This document shows, piece after piece, positions 1 through 28,166 of a stretch of DNA of 64,000 nt. The stretch's first letter is position 1, and every line of letters begins with the position of its first letter. This DNA comes from Nocardioides gilvus (GTDB lineage Bacteria > Actinomycetota > Actinomycetes > Propionibacteriales > Nocardioidaceae), in the NCBI RefSeq assembly GCF_003194605.1, contig NZ_QHKY01000003.1, positions 248,001 through 312,000 on the forward strand, written 5' to 3'. The notes beneath the pieces were generated by a model, which was not told the origin of the DNA, ran no database searches, and saw only the letters and a program-made list of their open reading frames with translations. Position numbers and translations under genes: made by a program.

Positions 1-1162
1 GGGCGGTGTCATCCTCGAGATCAACGGTGGCCCGGCCGCGCATCGTCACGCTCACGGCGGCACCGCCGCGCACGGCGTCGTCGGGCAGATCAATCAAGTG
101 GCGCGCCACCGCCCCGGTCTCACGCGACGGGGAACTCCACTCCGGGCAAGCCCTCGCCCGGTAGCTGAGGCCCAACGGCATCTCCGCGCGCGTGCTGGGC
201 ACGACGGTGCCGCAAGGGAAGCTCTCCCCACAACCATTGCCGGAGGTCGGACCGCAGTCCCGCGGCGTCGGAACGAACTCCGTCCGTTGTGGAGCGATGG
301 TCACCTTGGCCGTCTTCAGCGCAAGGCGTTTGCGGGAGACACGGATTGTGATCGGAGGTGTCTGGGCAACATTGCCGACCGCGTCCTCCACCCGGAGACG
401 AGCGGTGACGTCTCCCTCCCAGGGGGATGAACCGCCCACGTCGAGCTGGCTACCGTCTTCGCGCTTCCCGTTCCACTCGACGACCGCCGGTCCGTCGTAC
501 CACTGGCGCGCCCAGCGGTCGGAACTGATCTCGCGGAGCTTTCTGCCCCCGACGGTGCGGATCACCAGTGTGCCCGTCCCTGCCTCGTTCTGGGATTCCC
601 CACTGTCGACCCAGAACTTGAGCCGGTCGCGGACCACAGTGGTCTGGGGGTAGACGGTGTCGCTGTCGGCGACCAGGCGTGCCGCGGCGGGCAGACCGGC
701 GTCGGTGTCGACCGCGATGTCGTGGCGGACGACAACTCGCTTGCCGGTCTTCAGCGAGCGCGCAGCCACCTTGATCTGGTAGGGCTTGCGGCCGTCGGAG
801 CCGGCATCGGCCACGCGCTTGCCCTTGCGGTTCTTGCCGTTCCAGCTCCAGGCGACGGTGCTGCCGGCCTTGCGCTTGCCGAGCTTGATCGGACCGCGCA
901 CGACCTTGCCGGCGCGCACCACCTTGAGGGTGACGTTGGCGCGCTTCTTCACCTTCACCTTGAAGCGCGCCTTGTCGTGGCGACCGTCGCCGTTGGGCGA
1001 GAACGCAGCGGGGCCCTTGACCGAGAGCCATGACTTGGCAGCAGCGCCTGCAGGTGCGGGGCCTGCGGGTGCCGCGCCCACAGGAGACAGGGTGAGCGCC
1101 GGCACGGCACTCAGAACAAGAGCGGCCAGCGCGAATCGCGCCGCCCAACGGTTTGTGGTCAT
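1..1162 (-). CDS. Secreted protein with FlgD/gliding-type Ig-like domain (C-terminus cut)
   Basis: Reading starts at the ATG at 1162 and stays open to the left edge, so about 387 residues are visible and the C-terminus is missing. The first 30 residues form a signal peptide (two Arg, then a hydrophobic Leu/Ala/Val stretch, then AAPAGPAPAG). Near residue 54 is FSPNGDGRHD, the calcium-binding-like SPNGDG signature that opens FlgD-type Ig-like domains. It is followed by KRANVTLKVVRAGKV and the W-x-W-N-G-K turn typical of that fold, and a second W-N-G-K turn occurs near residue 240. Late in the visible part are several Cys (CGPTSGNGCG, SFPCG, RACPEW), suggesting disulphides outside the cell. An extracellular structural or adhesion role is inferred; no catalytic motif is visible. 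It is transcribed away from tRNA-Ala and appears monocistronic here. Confidence 0.75.
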   Translation of the reverse strand, partial: MTTNRWAARFALAALVLSAVPALTLSPVGAAPAGPAPAGAAAKSWLSVKGPAAFSPNGDGRHDKARFKVKVKKRANVTLKVVRAGKVVRGPIKLGKRKAGSTVAWSWNGKNRKGKRVADAGSDGRKPYQIKVAARSLKTGKRVVVRHDIAVDTDAGLPAAARLVADSDTVYPQTTVVRDRLKFWVDSGESQNEAGTGTLVIRTVGGRKLREISSDRWARQWYDGPAVVEWNGKREDGSQLDVGGSSPWEGDVTARLRVEDAVGNVAQTPPITIRVSRKRLALKTAKVTIAPQRTEFVPTPRDCGPTSGNGCGESFPCGTVVPSTRAEMPLGLSYRARACPEWSSPSRETGAVARHLIDLPDDAVRGGAAVSVTMRGRATVDLEDDTA

Positions 1163-21061: not shown

Positions 21062-21529
21062 TCAGAAGGCCTGGTCGAGGTCGTCGAAGAGTCTGTTGTA
21101 GCGGTGCAGCTGGGCGACCAACCCGGCCAACGCCTCGTCGTCCCACTCGTCCAGACGCTCCCTGAGCCGCTCGCGGCGCACTGCGTCGACGTCGGCCAGA
21201 CCCTGCTCGCCGGCCGAGGTCAGCTGGAGCAGGCTGGCGCGCTTGTCGTCGGGGTCGGCGGAACGTTCGACCAGACCCAGGTCGATCGCGTGCTGCACCT
21301 GACGGCTGACCGCGCCCTTGTCGGTCTCGAAGCATTCGGAGATCAGCGAGGCCCGCACCGCGCCCCGCTCCTTGAGGAAGCGCAGGATCATGTAGGCAGG
21401 CGCGGAGAGCTCGGGGTGAACCTGCTCCGCACGAGCACGTACGACCTTGCGCGCCCGGCGCATCAGCACGCCGACCTCCTGCTCGAGGTCGTCGAGCTGT
21501 TCGTCGCGCCGGGACCTGATCTCGCTCAT
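21062..21529 (-). CDS. MarR-family transcriptional regulator
   Basis: 155 residues. A helical dimerization N-terminus, then LSAPAYMILRFLKERGAVRASLISECFETDKGAVSRQVQ as the winged helix with recognition helix KGAVSRQVQHAIDLGLV, and the wing DKRASLLQLTSAG. It is the second gene of an operon with the MFS exporter (start overlaps the exporter stop, ATGA) and probably represses that operon by binding the two palindromes at 23192-23236. Ligands of MarR proteins are often phenolic or lipophilic drugs. Confidence 0.9.
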   Translation of the reverse strand: MSEIRSRRDEQLDDLEQEVGVLMRRARKVVRARAEQVHPELSAPAYMILRFLKERGAVRASLISECFETDKGAVSRQVQHAIDLGLVERSADPDDKRASLLQLTSAGEQGLADVDAVRRERLRERLDEWDDEALAGLVAQLHRYNRLFDDLDQAF

Positions 21530-23121
21530 CGCTGCGTGACCTTCTCGATCTCGTCGGCACGCTGGACGGTGCGTCGCAACGGCACCTCCTTGATGAAGAG
21601 GATGCAGAAGAACGAGAAGAAGGCGAAGGGGACGGTGAGGGCGAAGATGGTGGCGATGGCATCACCGTACGCGTTCTCGAAGATCAGACGGATCGGCGCC
21701 GGCAGCTCGGACAGGTTGGGCACCGAGCTCGAGTTGCCCGAGCCGGCGATCTCCAGACCGAGCTTGTCGAGCCCAGCGGTCACCGAGTCGGAGACCTGGT
21801 GGGCCAGTACGGCACCCAGGGCGGCGACACCGGCCGATCCACCGATGGAGCGGAAGAAGGCGACCAGGGAGGAGGCCGAGCCCATGTCAGCGGCGGCGGT
21901 GTTGTTCTGCACGGCGAGCACGAGGTTCTGCTGGATCGCGCCGACGCCGACTCCCAGGACCGCCATGAAGAGGCCGACCTGGACCAGGCTGCTCTCCCGG
22001 TCAATGGTCCCGAGCAGCCCCAGGCCCACGATGACGAGCAGGGAGCCGCCGACGAGGTAGCGCTTCCACCGGCCGGTGTCGGAGATGAGCTTGCCCGACA
22101 CGATGCCGGCGACCAGGGTCCCGGCGACCATGCAGATCGTCATCAGACCCGCCTTGGTCGGGCTCATGCCGCGGGCGAGCTGGAAGTACTGGCTCAGGTA
22201 GACACCCGAGCCGAACATCGCGATGCCGACGGTGATCGAGGCAGCGGTGGCCAGGGCGGTCGTACGGTCGCGGAAGAGGCGCAACGGGATCACCGGGTCG
22301 ACGGCCACGTATGCCTCGTACCAGACGGAGAAGCCGATGACGGCGAGCGCGGCGGCAATCAGGACATAGCTCGTGGTGGAGGTCCAGGCGAACTGGTTGC
22401 CCGCCAGGGAGACCCACACCAGCAGCAACGAGACACCCGCCATGATCAGCAGCGAGCCGACGTAGTCGATGGTGACCTGCTTGCGGGGGCGCGGAGGCAG
22501 GTTGAGGGTGCGCTGCAGGAGGAACCACGCGGCCACGGCGAAGGGCAGCGAGACCCAGAAGCACCAGCGCCAGCCGAGGGTGTCGACGACCAGTCCCCCG
22601 ACCAGGGGGCCACTGACGGTGGCGACGGCGAAGACCGAACCCATGTAACCGGCGTACCGGCCGCGCTCGCGCGGTGGCACCATCGAGGCGATGACGACCT
22701 GGACCAGGGCGGTCAGGCCACCGATGCCGAGCCCCTGGATCACTCGGGCGCTGATCAGCATCTCCATCGAGGTGGAGAACCCGGCTATCAGGGAGCCGAG
22801 GGCGAAGATGCTGAGCGCGGTCTGGGTGAGGATCTTCTGGTTGAAGAGGTCGGCGAGCTTGCCCCAGACAGGGGTGGTCGCGGTCATGGCGAGCAGGGTG
22901 CCGACGACGACCCAGGTGTAACCGGTCTGGCTGCCTCCGAGGTCGGAGACGATCGGCGGCAGCGCGGTGTTGACGATCGTGGAGGAGACCATGGCCGCGA
23001 ACATCGCGAGCAGCAGACCGGACAGGGCCTGCAGGATCTGGCGGTGGGTCATCTGCCCGCCGGCCTCGGCGGAGAGGGTCGGGGGCTGCGCCGGGTGGGC
23101 GGGAGCGGTGGGAGTGCTCAA
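21526..23121 (-). CDS. MFS multidrug exporter, DHA2 (14-TMS) family
   Basis: 531 residues with about 14 membrane helices. Motif A-like GKLADLFNQKILTQTAL lies after TM2, and the family core ALSGLLLAMFAAMVSSTIVNTALP (about 33-56) and IQGLGIGGLTALVQVVIASMV match QacA/EmrB-type proton antiporters. The most upstream start is a TTG at 23121 with a weak ribosome-binding site; an ATG at 23049 (residue 25) just before TM1 is a realistic alternative. The promoter at 23206-23234 and the two palindromes overlapping it indicate repression by the downstream marR. Confidence 0.88.
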   Translation of the reverse strand: MSTPTAPAHPAQPPTLSAEAGGQMTHRQILQALSGLLLAMFAAMVSSTIVNTALPPIVSDLGGSQTGYTWVVVGTLLAMTATTPVWGKLADLFNQKILTQTALSIFALGSLIAGFSTSMEMLISARVIQGLGIGGLTALVQVVIASMVPPRERGRYAGYMGSVFAVATVSGPLVGGLVVDTLGWRWCFWVSLPFAVAAWFLLQRTLNLPPRPRKQVTIDYVGSLLIMAGVSLLLVWVSLAGNQFAWTSTTSYVLIAAALAVIGFSVWYEAYVAVDPVIPLRLFRDRTTALATAASITVGIAMFGSGVYLSQYFQLARGMSPTKAGLMTICMVAGTLVAGIVSGKLISDTGRWKRYLVGGSLLVIVGLGLLGTIDRESSLVQVGLFMAVLGVGVGAIQQNLVLAVQNNTAAADMGSASSLVAFFRSIGGSAGVAALGAVLAHQVSDSVTAGLDKLGLEIAGSGNSSSVPNLSELPAPIRLIFENAYGDAIATIFALTVPFAFFSFFCILFIKEVPLRRTVQRADEIEKVTQR

Positions 23122-23191
23122 CGGGGCTCGATTCGGATCAGGGGGTGGCGGTTGGCCACGGCGGGACGGGCGCCAGGAGGATCACTCCATT

Positions 23192-23208
23192 GGTTGCCGA
23201 CAGCAACC
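23192..23208. promoter_or_regulatory. MarR-type operator O1
   Basis: GGTTGC-N5-GCAACC, a 17-bp perfect inverted repeat that overlaps the -10 hexamer of the exporter promoter. Confidence 0.65.
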
Positions 23209-23234
23209 ATACCTCGGAAGGTTGTCATCGACAA
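23206..23234 (-). promoter_or_regulatory. Promoter of the exporter-marR operon
   Basis: On the minus strand TTGTCG (23234-23229) is separated by 17 nt from TATGGT (23211-23206). The expected start near 23199 would leave a leader of about 78 nt before the TTG start. Confidence 0.6.
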
Positions 23235-23236
23235 CC
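23220..23236. promoter_or_regulatory. MarR-type operator O2
   Basis: GGTTGTC-N3-GACAACC, a 17-bp inverted repeat covering the -35 hexamer. Its centre is 28 bp from that of O1, and a further half-site GTTGTC follows at 23241-23246. Confidence 0.65.
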
Positions 23237-23267
23237 AACTGTTGTCCACGTCTCACCCGATCCCCTC

Positions 23268-23315
23268 GGACGTCATAGGAGGCGGTCGCCACGGCGACCG
23301 TTCCCGATGACGTCC
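23268..23315. terminator. Two-tier hairpin, terminator-like
   Basis: An outer 9-bp stem (23268-23276 with 23107+200, i.e. 23307-23315) encloses an inner 7-bp stem (23284-23290 with 23293-23299). The outer arms GGACGTCAT/ATGACGTCC are the same as the ends of the long hairpin at 29865-29912, which sits between convergent genes, so this is probably also a terminator. It could end a minus-strand transcript from the structured element just upstream. Confidence 0.5.
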
Positions 23316-23448
23316 CGGAAGGAGGTTGGACATGCAGCGACCCACAGGCCGTTCCTTGCGGAACGCGAGCCGGGGATGTGTCCGGGCCTGTGGGTCGGGT
23401 GTCTGCGTTGGATTCGCCAGAACTCGACTTCCAGCGAAGGCACGAGCT

Positions 23449-23490
23449 CTACTGGCTCGCAGCCACCTCACTCATCCGAAGAAAACTCAC
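23449..23490 (-). CDS. Possible 13-residue leader peptide
   Basis: A GTG 11 nt after GGAGG opens a frame reading MSFLRMSEVAASQ and then TAG. An internal ATG gives MSEVAASQ. The very strong ribosome-binding site is the only positive evidence; coding potential cannot be judged at this length. Confidence 0.25.
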   Translation of the reverse strand: MSFLRMSEVAASQ

Positions 23491-23565
23491 TTTTCGGACC
23501 ACCTCCTTTCCGTGTCCCACCACGGTAGATCGGGTTCGCCGATCGCTCAAGGGGTTTTTCCGACG

Positions 23566-25605
23566 TCATTCCTGCGGATCGGCCGCAGCCGCGAACTGGT
23601 CCGCAGCCAGGCGCGCGTACGCCCCTCCCGCAGCCAGCAACTCCTCGTGCGAGCCCTGCTCGACGATCGCACCCGCCTCCATCACCAGGATCACGTCCGC
23701 ATCGCGGATCGTGGAGAGTCGGTGGGCGATGACGAACGACGTACGGTCGGCCCGCAGCGCCGACATCGCCTGCTGCAGCAACAACTCGGTGCGGGTGTCG
23801 ACCGAGCTGGTGGCCTCGTCGAGGATCAACAACTCCGGGTCGGTCAGGAAGGCCCGCGCGATGGTCACCAGCTGGCGCTCCCCGGCCGAGAGGTTGGAGC
23901 CGTCCTCGTCGATGAGCGTCTCGTAGCCGTCCGGCAGCGAGTGCACGAAGCGGTCGACGAAGGTGGCCCTGGCCGCCTCGAGGATCTCCTCACGGGTGGC
24001 GTCAGGGCGCCCGAAGGCGATGTTCTCCGCGATCGTGCCCCGGAAGAGCCACGTGTCCTGGAGGACCATGCCGATCCGGCTGCGCAGGTCACTGCGCGCA
24101 ACGCTGGCGATGTCGACCCCGTCGAGGGTGATCCGGCCCCCGGTGACCTCGTAGAAGCGCATCACCAGGTTGACCAGGGTGGTCTTCCCCGCACCGGTCG
24201 GGCCCACGATCGCCACGGTCTGGCCGGGACGGGCGACGAGGGAGAGCCCGCTGATCAGGCTGGAGTCGGGGTCGTAGGAGAAGGAGACGTCCTCGAAACG
24301 GACCTCGCCCTCTCCGGCACCCAACCGCGCATGGAGCTCCCCGCTCACGCCGTCGTCCTCCTCGGGCGCGTCGAGGAGCTCGAAGACCCGCTCCGCCGAG
24401 GCGACCCCCGACTGCAGCAGGTTGGCCATGGAGGCGACCTGGGAGACCGGCTGGTTGAACTGGCGGGTGTACTGGATGAACGCCTGCACCTCACCCAGCG
24501 TCAACGCACCGCTGGTGACCCGGAGACCACCGACGACGGCGACGGCGACGTAGGTGAGGTTGCCGATGAACATCGTGATCGGCATGATCAGCCCGCTCAC
24601 GAACTGGGCGCTCCACGCTGCCTGGTAGAGCCCGTCGTTCTCCTCGGCAAACTTCACCTCGGAGGCCGGCTGGTGGCCGTAGACCTTGACCAGGGTGTGC
24701 CCCGAGAAGGCCTCCTCGATGTGTGAGTTGAGCCGACCCGTCTGGCGCCACTGCGAGACGAAGAGCTTCTGTGAACGCTTCATCACCTGCGCGGCGACCA
24801 GCATCGTCAGCGGCACCGAGACCAGGGCGATCAGCGCCAGCAGCGGCGAGATCCACAGCATCATCGCGAGCACCGCGAAGACGCTGAGCAGCGCGGTGAG
24901 CAGTTGGCTCAACGTCTGCTGCAGCGACGAGGCGACGTTGTCGATGTCGTTGGTGGCGCGGCTCAGGATCTCCCCGCGCGACTGCCGGTCGAAGTAGTCG
25001 AGCGGCAGACGGTGGATCTTGCCCTCCACCTCGCCGCGCAGGCGTCGTACGGTCCCCTGCACGACGTCGTTGAGCAGGTAGCCGGCGAGCCAGGCCAGGA
25101 CCGCTGCCAGGACGTACAGCACCAGGAGCCAGCCCAGGACCTGCCCGACGGCCCCGAAGTCGACGCCCTGACCGGGGACCAGGTCCATCGCCGCGATCAT
25201 GTCGGCCCGGGAGTCGTCGCCCTCGGCACGCAACTGCGCGACCGCCTCGTCCTGACTGAGGCCCACCGGCAGGCGGGAGGCCAGCAGACCGGAGAAGACC
25301 AGGTCAGTGGCGTGGCCCAGGATCCGCGGTCCGATGGAGGTGATCAGGACACTGACGACCGTCAGCGCGACGACCAACGCCGTACGCGTCCGCTCGGGGC
25401 GCATCCGCCCCGCCAGGCGCTTGGCGGAGGGCCAGAAGTCGTTGGCCTTCTCGGCGACCCCGACGGCGCCGGGGCCGTGGCCCGGGCGACCGACCCCGGT
25501 GATCCGTTCGGTCGTCTTCAGGTCCCGCCCCTGCTCCCGACCCTGCTCAGGCTCCTGCGGGCCCGGGGCCGTGGCCGGGGCCGCGCCGTTCTCGTCCCCG
25601 CTCAT
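23566..25605 (-). CDS. ABC exporter half-transporter, catalytically complete subunit
   Basis: 679 residues: about 75 hydrophilic residues, a six-helix type IV exporter domain, and an NBD from about 425. The NBD has Walker [14 protein letters not shown]-loop [10 protein letters not shown], signature LSAGERQ (deviating from LSGGQ), Walker [13 protein letters not shown] with the catalytic Glu, and switch His in [10 protein letters not shown]. Its start overlaps the stop of the upstream partner gene by 4 nt. The partner lacks the Glu and His, so the pair forms an asymmetric heterodimer like TM287/288 or BmrCD. Drug or lipid export is likely; the substrate is unknown. Confidence 0.9.
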
Positions 25606-27403: not shown

Positions 27404-28054
27404 TCAGGGTTGGCGGCGCACGACCTGCCAGCCGTCGTCGACGCGCGTCCACTCGAGGCGGTCGTGCATCCGTCCGGCGCGCCCCTGCCAGAACTCGACG
27501 ACCTCGGGACGCAGCCGGTACCCGCCCCAGGTCGGCGGCACCGGCACCTCCCGGCCGGCGAACTGCTCCTCGTAGGCCGCGTACGTACGCTCCAACTCCT
27601 CGCGTGAGGAGACCGGTTGCGACTGGCGGGACGCCCAGGCGCCGATCTGCGCCCCACGCGGCCGGAGCCGGAAGTAGGCCGCCACCTCGTCGGCCGACAG
27701 CGCCGAGGCGATGGCCTCGACCCGGACCTGGCGCTCGACCGGGTGCCAACCGAAGAGCAGCGCGCAGGCAGGGTTGGCGGCCAGGTCGACCCCCTTGCGT
27801 GAGGCGTGGTTGGTGAAGAAGACGAAGCCGCGTTCGTCGAACCCCTTGAGCAGCACCATCCGCGACGACGGTTGCCCGGTCGTCGAGACCGTGGAGAGGA
27901 CCATGGCGTTGGGTTCGTGCATGCCCGAGTCGAGGGCCTCGGCCAGCCAGAGTCCGAACTGGGCGAGCGGGTCGGCGGCGGCTTCGGCCTCGTCGAGACC
28001 GCGGTCCGCGTACTCGTGACGGAGGCGTGCGAGGTGGTCGTGCTCAGGAGGCAT
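27404..28054 (-). CDS. pdxH: Pyridoxine/pyridoxamine 5'-phosphate oxidase
   Basis: 216 residues from the ATG at 28054. Family blocks are all there: NAMVLSTVSTTGQPSSRMVLLKGFDERGFVFFTN (FMN and PLP phosphate contacts), SRKGVDLAANPACALLF, WHPVERQVRVEA, RPRGAQIGAWASRQSQ, and the C-terminal GYRLRPEVVEFWQGRAGRMHDR. It oxidises pyridoxine or pyridoxamine phosphate to PLP using FMN and O2. The start is supported by TATCGT six bases upstream and the absence of any ribosome-binding site. It is divergent from the citrate synthase gene. Confidence 0.94.
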   Translation of the reverse strand: MPPEHDHLARLRHEYADRGLDEAEAAADPLAQFGLWLAEALDSGMHEPNAMVLSTVSTTGQPSSRMVLLKGFDERGFVFFTNHASRKGVDLAANPACALLFGWHPVERQVRVEAIASALSADEVAAYFRLRPRGAQIGAWASRQSQPVSSREELERTYAAYEEQFAGREVPVPPTWGGYRLRPEVVEFWQGRAGRMHDRLEWTRVDDGWQVVRRQP

Positions 28055-28060
28055 GGCACG

Positions 28061-28066
28061 ACGATA
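28061..28066 (-). promoter_or_regulatory. Leaderless -10 element for pdxH
   Basis: TATCGT on the minus strand, then 6 nt, then ATG. Confidence 0.5.
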
Positions 28067-28166
28067 GACCGATCCAACGAGACGCCGTGCTGCGCGAAGG
28101 GGCAGAATGAATACGGCCCACACCCCCGGGTCGCTGTCCCACCCCCGACGAAGGAGTCGAAGTCGT

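Follow-up and report, generated by a model that had tools for sequence, protein, structure and literature searches.

What kind of element lies in the 444-bp gap (23122-23565) between two exporter genes of Nocardioides gilvus? In the 64,000-nucleotide stretch of DNA that we analyzed as a whole (the window), an ABC exporter gene (23566-25605, ending with its stop at 23566) and an MFS exporter gene (21526-23121, starting at 23121), both on the minus strand and assigned by Pfam, flank this gap, and a MarR gene, likewise assigned by Pfam, lies at 21062-21529. A preliminary description had placed a structured minus-strand element at 23250-23511 and had likened it to a drug-responsive leader-peptide attenuator or a small RNA. 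That the gap holds a structured minus-strand element was confirmed by folding, which gave a z-score of -2.8 with 0 of 200 shuffles folding equally well, and the small RNA was the alternative borne out: using cmscan, we found a match to the Rfam family Ms_IGR-5 (RF02471) on the minus strand from 23515 to 23332, spanning model positions 1-184 of 184 and scoring 96.5 bits (gathering score, 45). It was the sole Rfam match within 23200-23600, where 6S RNA, tmRNA, and riboswitches gave no match above the gathering score, and a search of the genome found one intergenic copy. The exporter gap thus houses a separate small RNA gene, a member of an actinobacterial family. The earlier extent hence stood as to location and not as to bounds, since 23331-23250 falls outside the Ms_IGR-5 element. 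This outer part contains a distinct long hairpin (23268-23315; GGACGTCAT...ATGACGTCC) built around GGTCGCC/GGCGACC, which lies between the RNA and two MarR-type palindromes, GGTTGTCGATGACAACC (23236-23220) and GGTTGCTGTCGGCAACC (23208-23192), that precede the MFS-MarR genes; similar GGTTG-CAACC sites occur 3' of the RNA in five Nocardioides-type relatives (L004, L006, L012, L014, and L026).

For the comparative analysis, we used about 220 distinct elements altogether. Some 120 of these came from a DNA pattern that fixed AGGAGGTGRTCC and GAGGTGGCTG, letters that were therefore not counted as conserved in that set, while a second set comprised 60 regions from covariance-model searches, fetched after the ideas of an open reading frame (ORF) and a pseudoknot had formed. 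Within the same order, RF02471 scored above its cut-off in 123 of 198 genomes, nearly always as a single copy, and in 50 of 397 genomes of a phylum-wide sample; scanning named genomes with the DNA pattern gave at least 120 contigs, mostly from Actinomycetota along with a few metagenome-assembled genomes (MAGs) of other phyla. Mycobacterium, Streptomyces, Amycolatopsis, Micromonospora, and Nocardioides were among the pattern matches listed. One genome, the only such case in the order sample, carried two overlapping Ms_IGR-5 matches (G096, contig C157; 46.8 and 40 bits), which may represent a partial duplication. Outside Actinomycetota, six look-alikes from Sumerlaeota (L074), Nitrospinae (L094), Zixibacteria (L095), Spirochaetia (L115, and L196 of the same phylum), and Deltaproteobacteria (L120) showed the same order of a Shine-Dalgarno sequence, a short ORF ending in -EVAxx-stop, a CAG.CCACC-like strand, and a terminator-like hairpin, several of them with T runs, and the Zixibacteria copy exceeded the Rfam cut-off at 55.9 bits. 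Such copies were rare in two of these phyla (1 of 18 genomes in one, 2 of 149 in the other) and their carriers included MAG contigs, and they may have arisen by transfer or reflect binning errors. A contig labeled Acidobacteriota (L101) closely resembled Acidimicrobiia copies and may be mis-binned. Two pattern matches from Nitrospinota and Spirochaetota (L193 and L194) lacked the rest of the architecture and were set aside as looking like chance, and viral contigs gave no pattern match.

The RNA appears to be transcribed from a promoter of its own. On the minus strand, a -35 hexamer TTGAGC (23545-23550) and a -10 hexamer TACCGT (23522-23527) are separated by a 17-nt spacer, from which the RNA 5' end is predicted near 23515. 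This pattern is kept in homologues: TTGnnn-16..19-TAnnnT was found upstream of 178 of 225 elements, compared to a shuffled mean of 0.95. The neighborhood, as read with a simple ORF heuristic for genes, shows no such constancy. Among 157 loci, the first downstream gene was co-oriented with the RNA in 83 and ran the other way in 74, and its type changed by family, from MFS genes in Nocardioides relatives to PNP oxidase in Streptomyces, a heme-binding THAP4-like protein or a solute-binding protein in mycobacteria, and a metallo-beta-lactamase fold in Micromonospora, with DHO dehydrogenase nearby in Amycolatopsis. As the element has its own conserved promoter and a 3' hairpin, and as the downstream gene has no preferred orientation, we regard it as a free-standing gene. 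Transcripts and ribosome reads have been reported for homologues (PMC10454040, PMC8079986, PMC8780764, PMC4974804): the Streptomyces avermitilis homologue is a separate small RNA transcription unit (PMC8780764), that of S. lividans was confirmed by RNA-seq (PMC8079986), and that of Mycobacterium smegmatis was observed (PMC10454040) and, in the citation given there, was called an sRNA by Li 2013. As a side observation on the neighborhood, a PNP-oxidase (pdxH-like) gene lies near the RNA in Streptomyces (L090:4897-5601), and a protein of similar appearance is encoded at 27404-28123, upstream of the ABC exporters of the window, possibly reflecting an old shared neighborhood.

These data bear directly on whether the element could be a drug-responsive attenuator with a leader peptide, acting in cis on the MFS exporter. 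In common with such attenuators, the locus offers a Shine-Dalgarno sequence, a mini-ORF whose 3' end lies in an RNA helix, and a terminator-like hairpin, and an MFS gene follows in many Nocardioides-type relatives; Ms_IGR-5 differs, however, in being free-standing and in having no co-oriented gene consistently downstream. The orientation test for an exporter leader was negative, as the downstream gene is opposite in 74 of 157 loci and unrelated between families, while at our locus the MarR-type palindromes and the exporter start lie past the hairpin. Comparing homologues, we found no conserved sensor codons in the ORF beyond the part engaged in RNA pairing. With no preferred downstream orientation, its own promoter, and no such codons, the attenuator reading is already largely refuted and we consider it extremely unlikely, and the reservation voiced earlier, that the element fits poorly as a leader of the exporter mRNA, was well founded.

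The 5' part of the RNA is complementary to the 16S tail of the ribosome. The Shine-Dalgarno sequence, described earlier as extremely long, proved to be an extended one, GGAAAGGAGGTGGTCC (23496-23511, minus strand), that can pair with all 16 of 16 nt of the 16S tail GGAUCACCUCCUUUCU, the 16S rRNA of this genome ending in GGATCACCTCCTTTCT. The predicted 16-nt duplex amounts to -29.8 kcal/mol, compared to -23.6 kcal/mol for the second-best site in the 64-kb window, and the 14-mer AAAGGAGGTGRTCC, with at most one mismatch, occurs only twice in the genome, once at this locus and once antisense to the 16S gene. Homologues retained 15-16 of the 16 pairs in 158 of 160 cases, a count in which core positions are partly set by the search pattern. 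Since the four letters 5' of GGAGG were purines in 160 of 160 elements, matching the 16S pyrimidines, the complementarity is also kept at positions free of that pattern. The preliminary description had further proposed an 8-bp complement of the Shine-Dalgarno sequence. This 8-mer, ACCTCCTT, is present at 23326-23319 on the minus strand and is not conserved: of 160 homologues, a single one had it after the hairpin, and ACCTCC occurred 11 times compared to 10.7 expected. We therefore rejected it as an anti-Shine-Dalgarno, the pairing looking like chance. Separately, we noticed AAGGAG after the 16S 3' end in one contig (L190; G000 C2), complementary to the CUCCUU of the 16S itself, where a 16S precursor hairpin could hide the anti-Shine-Dalgarno.

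Such complementarity raises the alternative that the RNA is a ribosome decoy, which captures 30S subunits and thereby lowers or senses the pool of free ribosomes, with the peptide being incidental. Its parts would be the full 16S-tail duplex upstream, a pseudoknot at the leading edge, and a second Shine-Dalgarno at the stop. A decoy would suit both the strongest 16S duplex of the window, formed by the only near-match in the genome outside rDNA, and the frequent weak starts TTG, CTG, ATT, and ATC in homologues; yet a single gene copy would call for very high RNA abundance, and a decoy has no need of a conserved stop position or of covariation in the helix at the end of the ORF. On balance, we consider a decoy unlikely.

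We found the reading frame and its stop to be conserved in homologues. The 13-codon frame of the preliminary description, running from GTG (23490) to TAG (23449) on the minus strand (MSFLRMSEVAASQ), was confirmed, and homologous ORFs span 11-15 codons. In the frame of GAG GTG, an ATG, GTG, or TTG start lay at the right distance in 151 of 163 elements, compared to 1 and 22 for the two alternative frames, and in 162 of 163 once CTG, ATC, and ACG were admitted. The start codon moves along with the spacer, whose length occurred in all three phases (82, 44, and 37). The stop was the third codon after GAG GTG GCT in 161 of 163 elements (TAG 141, TGA 12, TAA 8), the window copy being longer by one codon before the stop (EVAASQ). 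In the second set, the stop stood five codons past GAG in 57 of 57 elements and an in-frame start was present in 56 of 57, ATT, ATC, CTG, and ACG among them. Four Acidimicrobiia-like elements (L242, L246, L247, and L249) seemingly start with ATT or ATC. IF3 normally discriminates against near-cognate starts, and these seeming starts suggest that translation of such RNAs might depend on IF3.

Could the product itself be the target of selection? A gene for a functional peptide of 11-15 residues ending in -EVAxx, with the RNA structure merely regulating its translation, would account for the conserved frame and stop. Against this, the N-terminal half of the peptide is hypervariable and variability extends to everything except -EVAxx, while the conserved -EVA- residues coincide with nucleotides of the pseudoknot, the GAGGTG motif, and the terminal helix. 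We thus hold a functional peptide to be very unlikely; the comparisons suggest that conservation concerns translation and the position of the stop more than the peptide product. The GAGGTG motif (23464-23469, minus strand), identified by homologue comparison, probably mimics a second Shine-Dalgarno, its calculated duplex with the 16S tail reaching -11.3 kcal/mol. In prfB-type genes, an internal Shine-Dalgarno-like motif lies just before a stop codon. The Ms_IGR-5 ORF shares such a motif ahead of its stop, but at a distance of mostly 9 nt in homologues (12 nt in the window copy), farther than in prfB, and a frameshift product is not suggested.

A strand farther 3' pairs with the final part of the ORF. 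In the helix that we term H2, the 5' arm GGTGGCTGCG (23458-23467, minus strand), formed by the ORF end, pairs with the 3' arm CGCAGACACC (23407-23398), located just 5' of the 3' hairpin, at -13.0 kcal/mol. Across homologues, GGTGGCTGNN at the ORF end faces NNCAGYCACC ahead of the 3' hairpin, and the covariation check that had been proposed earlier disclosed strong covariation among them. At the position after CTG (n=134), we counted C-G 78, U-G 26, U-A 11, G-C 10, and A-U 4, with 5 mismatched, and in more remote elements changes on both sides were found as GGTGACCATC with GATGGTCACC (L045), GGTGGCTCG with CGAGCCACC (L219, L220, and L222), and GGTGGCGGCG with CGCC...CCACC (the L197-L210 group). 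In 203 of 222 elements, the native H2 arm paired better with its 3' region than 20 swapped arms did on average. The subsequent 3' hairpin (23338-23397, minus strand) matches the earlier account of a 13-bp stem with an inner hairpin, its stem (23397-23385/23350-23338) enclosing hairpins A (about 23385-23370) and B (23365-23350); the terminator-like hairpin of that account is present, though without a T run at this locus, where a terminator scan made no call.

The C-rich 3' strands and the loop might instead act on mRNAs, as in an ordinary base-pairing regulatory RNA of dual function whose ORF translation tunes its stability. In line with this, the S. avermitilis RNA is listed among sRNA transcription units (PMC8780764), and that of M. 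smegmatis was termed an sRNA by Li 2013 (as cited in PMC10454040). As covariation ties the 3' strands to the ORF, however, internal pairing already explains their conservation, and we judge a base-pairing regulator unlikely. A small ORF on an RNA of regulatory size is shared with dual-function small RNAs, but in Ms_IGR-5 the ORF sits inside a co-conserved structure.

A second long-range contact links the middle of the ORF to the 3' hairpin. Homologue covariation supports a pseudoknot in which GGATG (23477-23473, minus strand), beginning at +14 of the start codon, would form five Watson-Crick pairs with CATCC (23378-23374) in the hairpin A loop; in homologues, GGAYN stands right before GAGGTG and NRUCC in that loop. 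The Y-R pair was C-G in 141, U-A in 13, and U-G in 2 of 159 elements. Counts against shuffles, which leave sequence relatedness in place and thus overstate the number of independent events, gave 157 observed Y-R pairs (shuffled mean 143.5, maximum 149), 113 of 159 compared to 64.7 for the adjacent pair, and, in the second set, a pseudoknot in 47 of 57 elements (shuffled mean 37.3, maximum 44). Over the five pairs, 92.7% of cells were paired, compared to 24-49% upon sliding the partner strand by 1-2 columns and 30-34% at 3. The stronger argument for the putative pseudoknot is the swaps in separate families, with the GGAU/AUCC change present in both Nocardioidaceae and Streptomyces/Kitasatospora, and with deeper lineages showing swaps of the GACC/GGUC type. 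We also considered a hairpin between the Shine-Dalgarno sequence (GGTCC) and GGAY, which was paired at the variable position in 145 of 160 elements; it is compatible with the data, but its flanking support is weaker than that of the pseudoknot, and it was rejected as the main conserved structure. The two use the same nucleotides and hence compete, but no pairing was seen that opens the 3' stem.

Taken together, comparative evidence supports the identity of the RNA gene, its own transcription unit, the 16S complementarity, the frame and stop, H2, and the pseudoknot. From these we infer, at somewhat less than an even chance, that translation and folding of the free-standing Ms_IGR-5 RNA with its mini-ORF may be mutually exclusive, constituting a ribosome-occupancy switch. 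The RNA would dock on ribosomes via the whole 16S tail, while in the folded state the pseudoknot would hold the middle of the ORF and H2 its end. Position +14 from the start codon lies approximately at the front border of the footprint left by an initiating ribosome. A docked ribosome would thus meet a folded RNA, and translating the 13 codons would have to open both the pseudoknot and H2. At the stop, GAGGTG, mostly six nt before the last sense codon, would come close to an initiation-like Shine-Dalgarno spacing and may delay release. The shape of the RNA would thereby report its own translation state, as translation would free the 3' strands, and the output could be these freed strands or the captured ribosome. 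Ribosome reads cover the homologues of M. abscessus and M. smegmatis (PMC4974804), but reads on noncoding RNAs may stem from other ribonucleoproteins (PMC4974804), which weighs against an occupancy switch, as do the variability of the peptide outside -EVA-, itself constrained by RNA pairing, and the fact that a plain small mRNA of stable structure would look alike.

The RNA itself is not new, as it belongs to a known Rfam family to which the locus adds a member. The window copy shares with RF02471 the full-length match, the single copy, the 5' motif, and the H2-like helix and 3' hairpin of the model, but differs in its extra codon before the stop and in the pseudoknot, a pairing absent from the Rfam model in the cmscan output. 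In the literature that we searched, we found no functional study of Ms_IGR-5 and no description of the ORF, the full 16S complementarity, the pseudoknot, or the non-actinobacterial copies, some of which the founding 2013 paper may note. Many actinobacteria, mycobacteria and Streptomyces among them, carry Ms_IGR-5, and the full 16S-tail pairing, the mini-ORF with its fixed stop, and the pseudoknot over the ORF recast what was called an sRNA as a testable ribosome-linked device. It is possible, if doubtful, that such a device is widespread across Actinomycetota and scattered among other phyla, the RNA docking ribosomes by means of the complete 16S tail and itself measuring translation initiation as it alternates between its pseudoknotted and translated forms.
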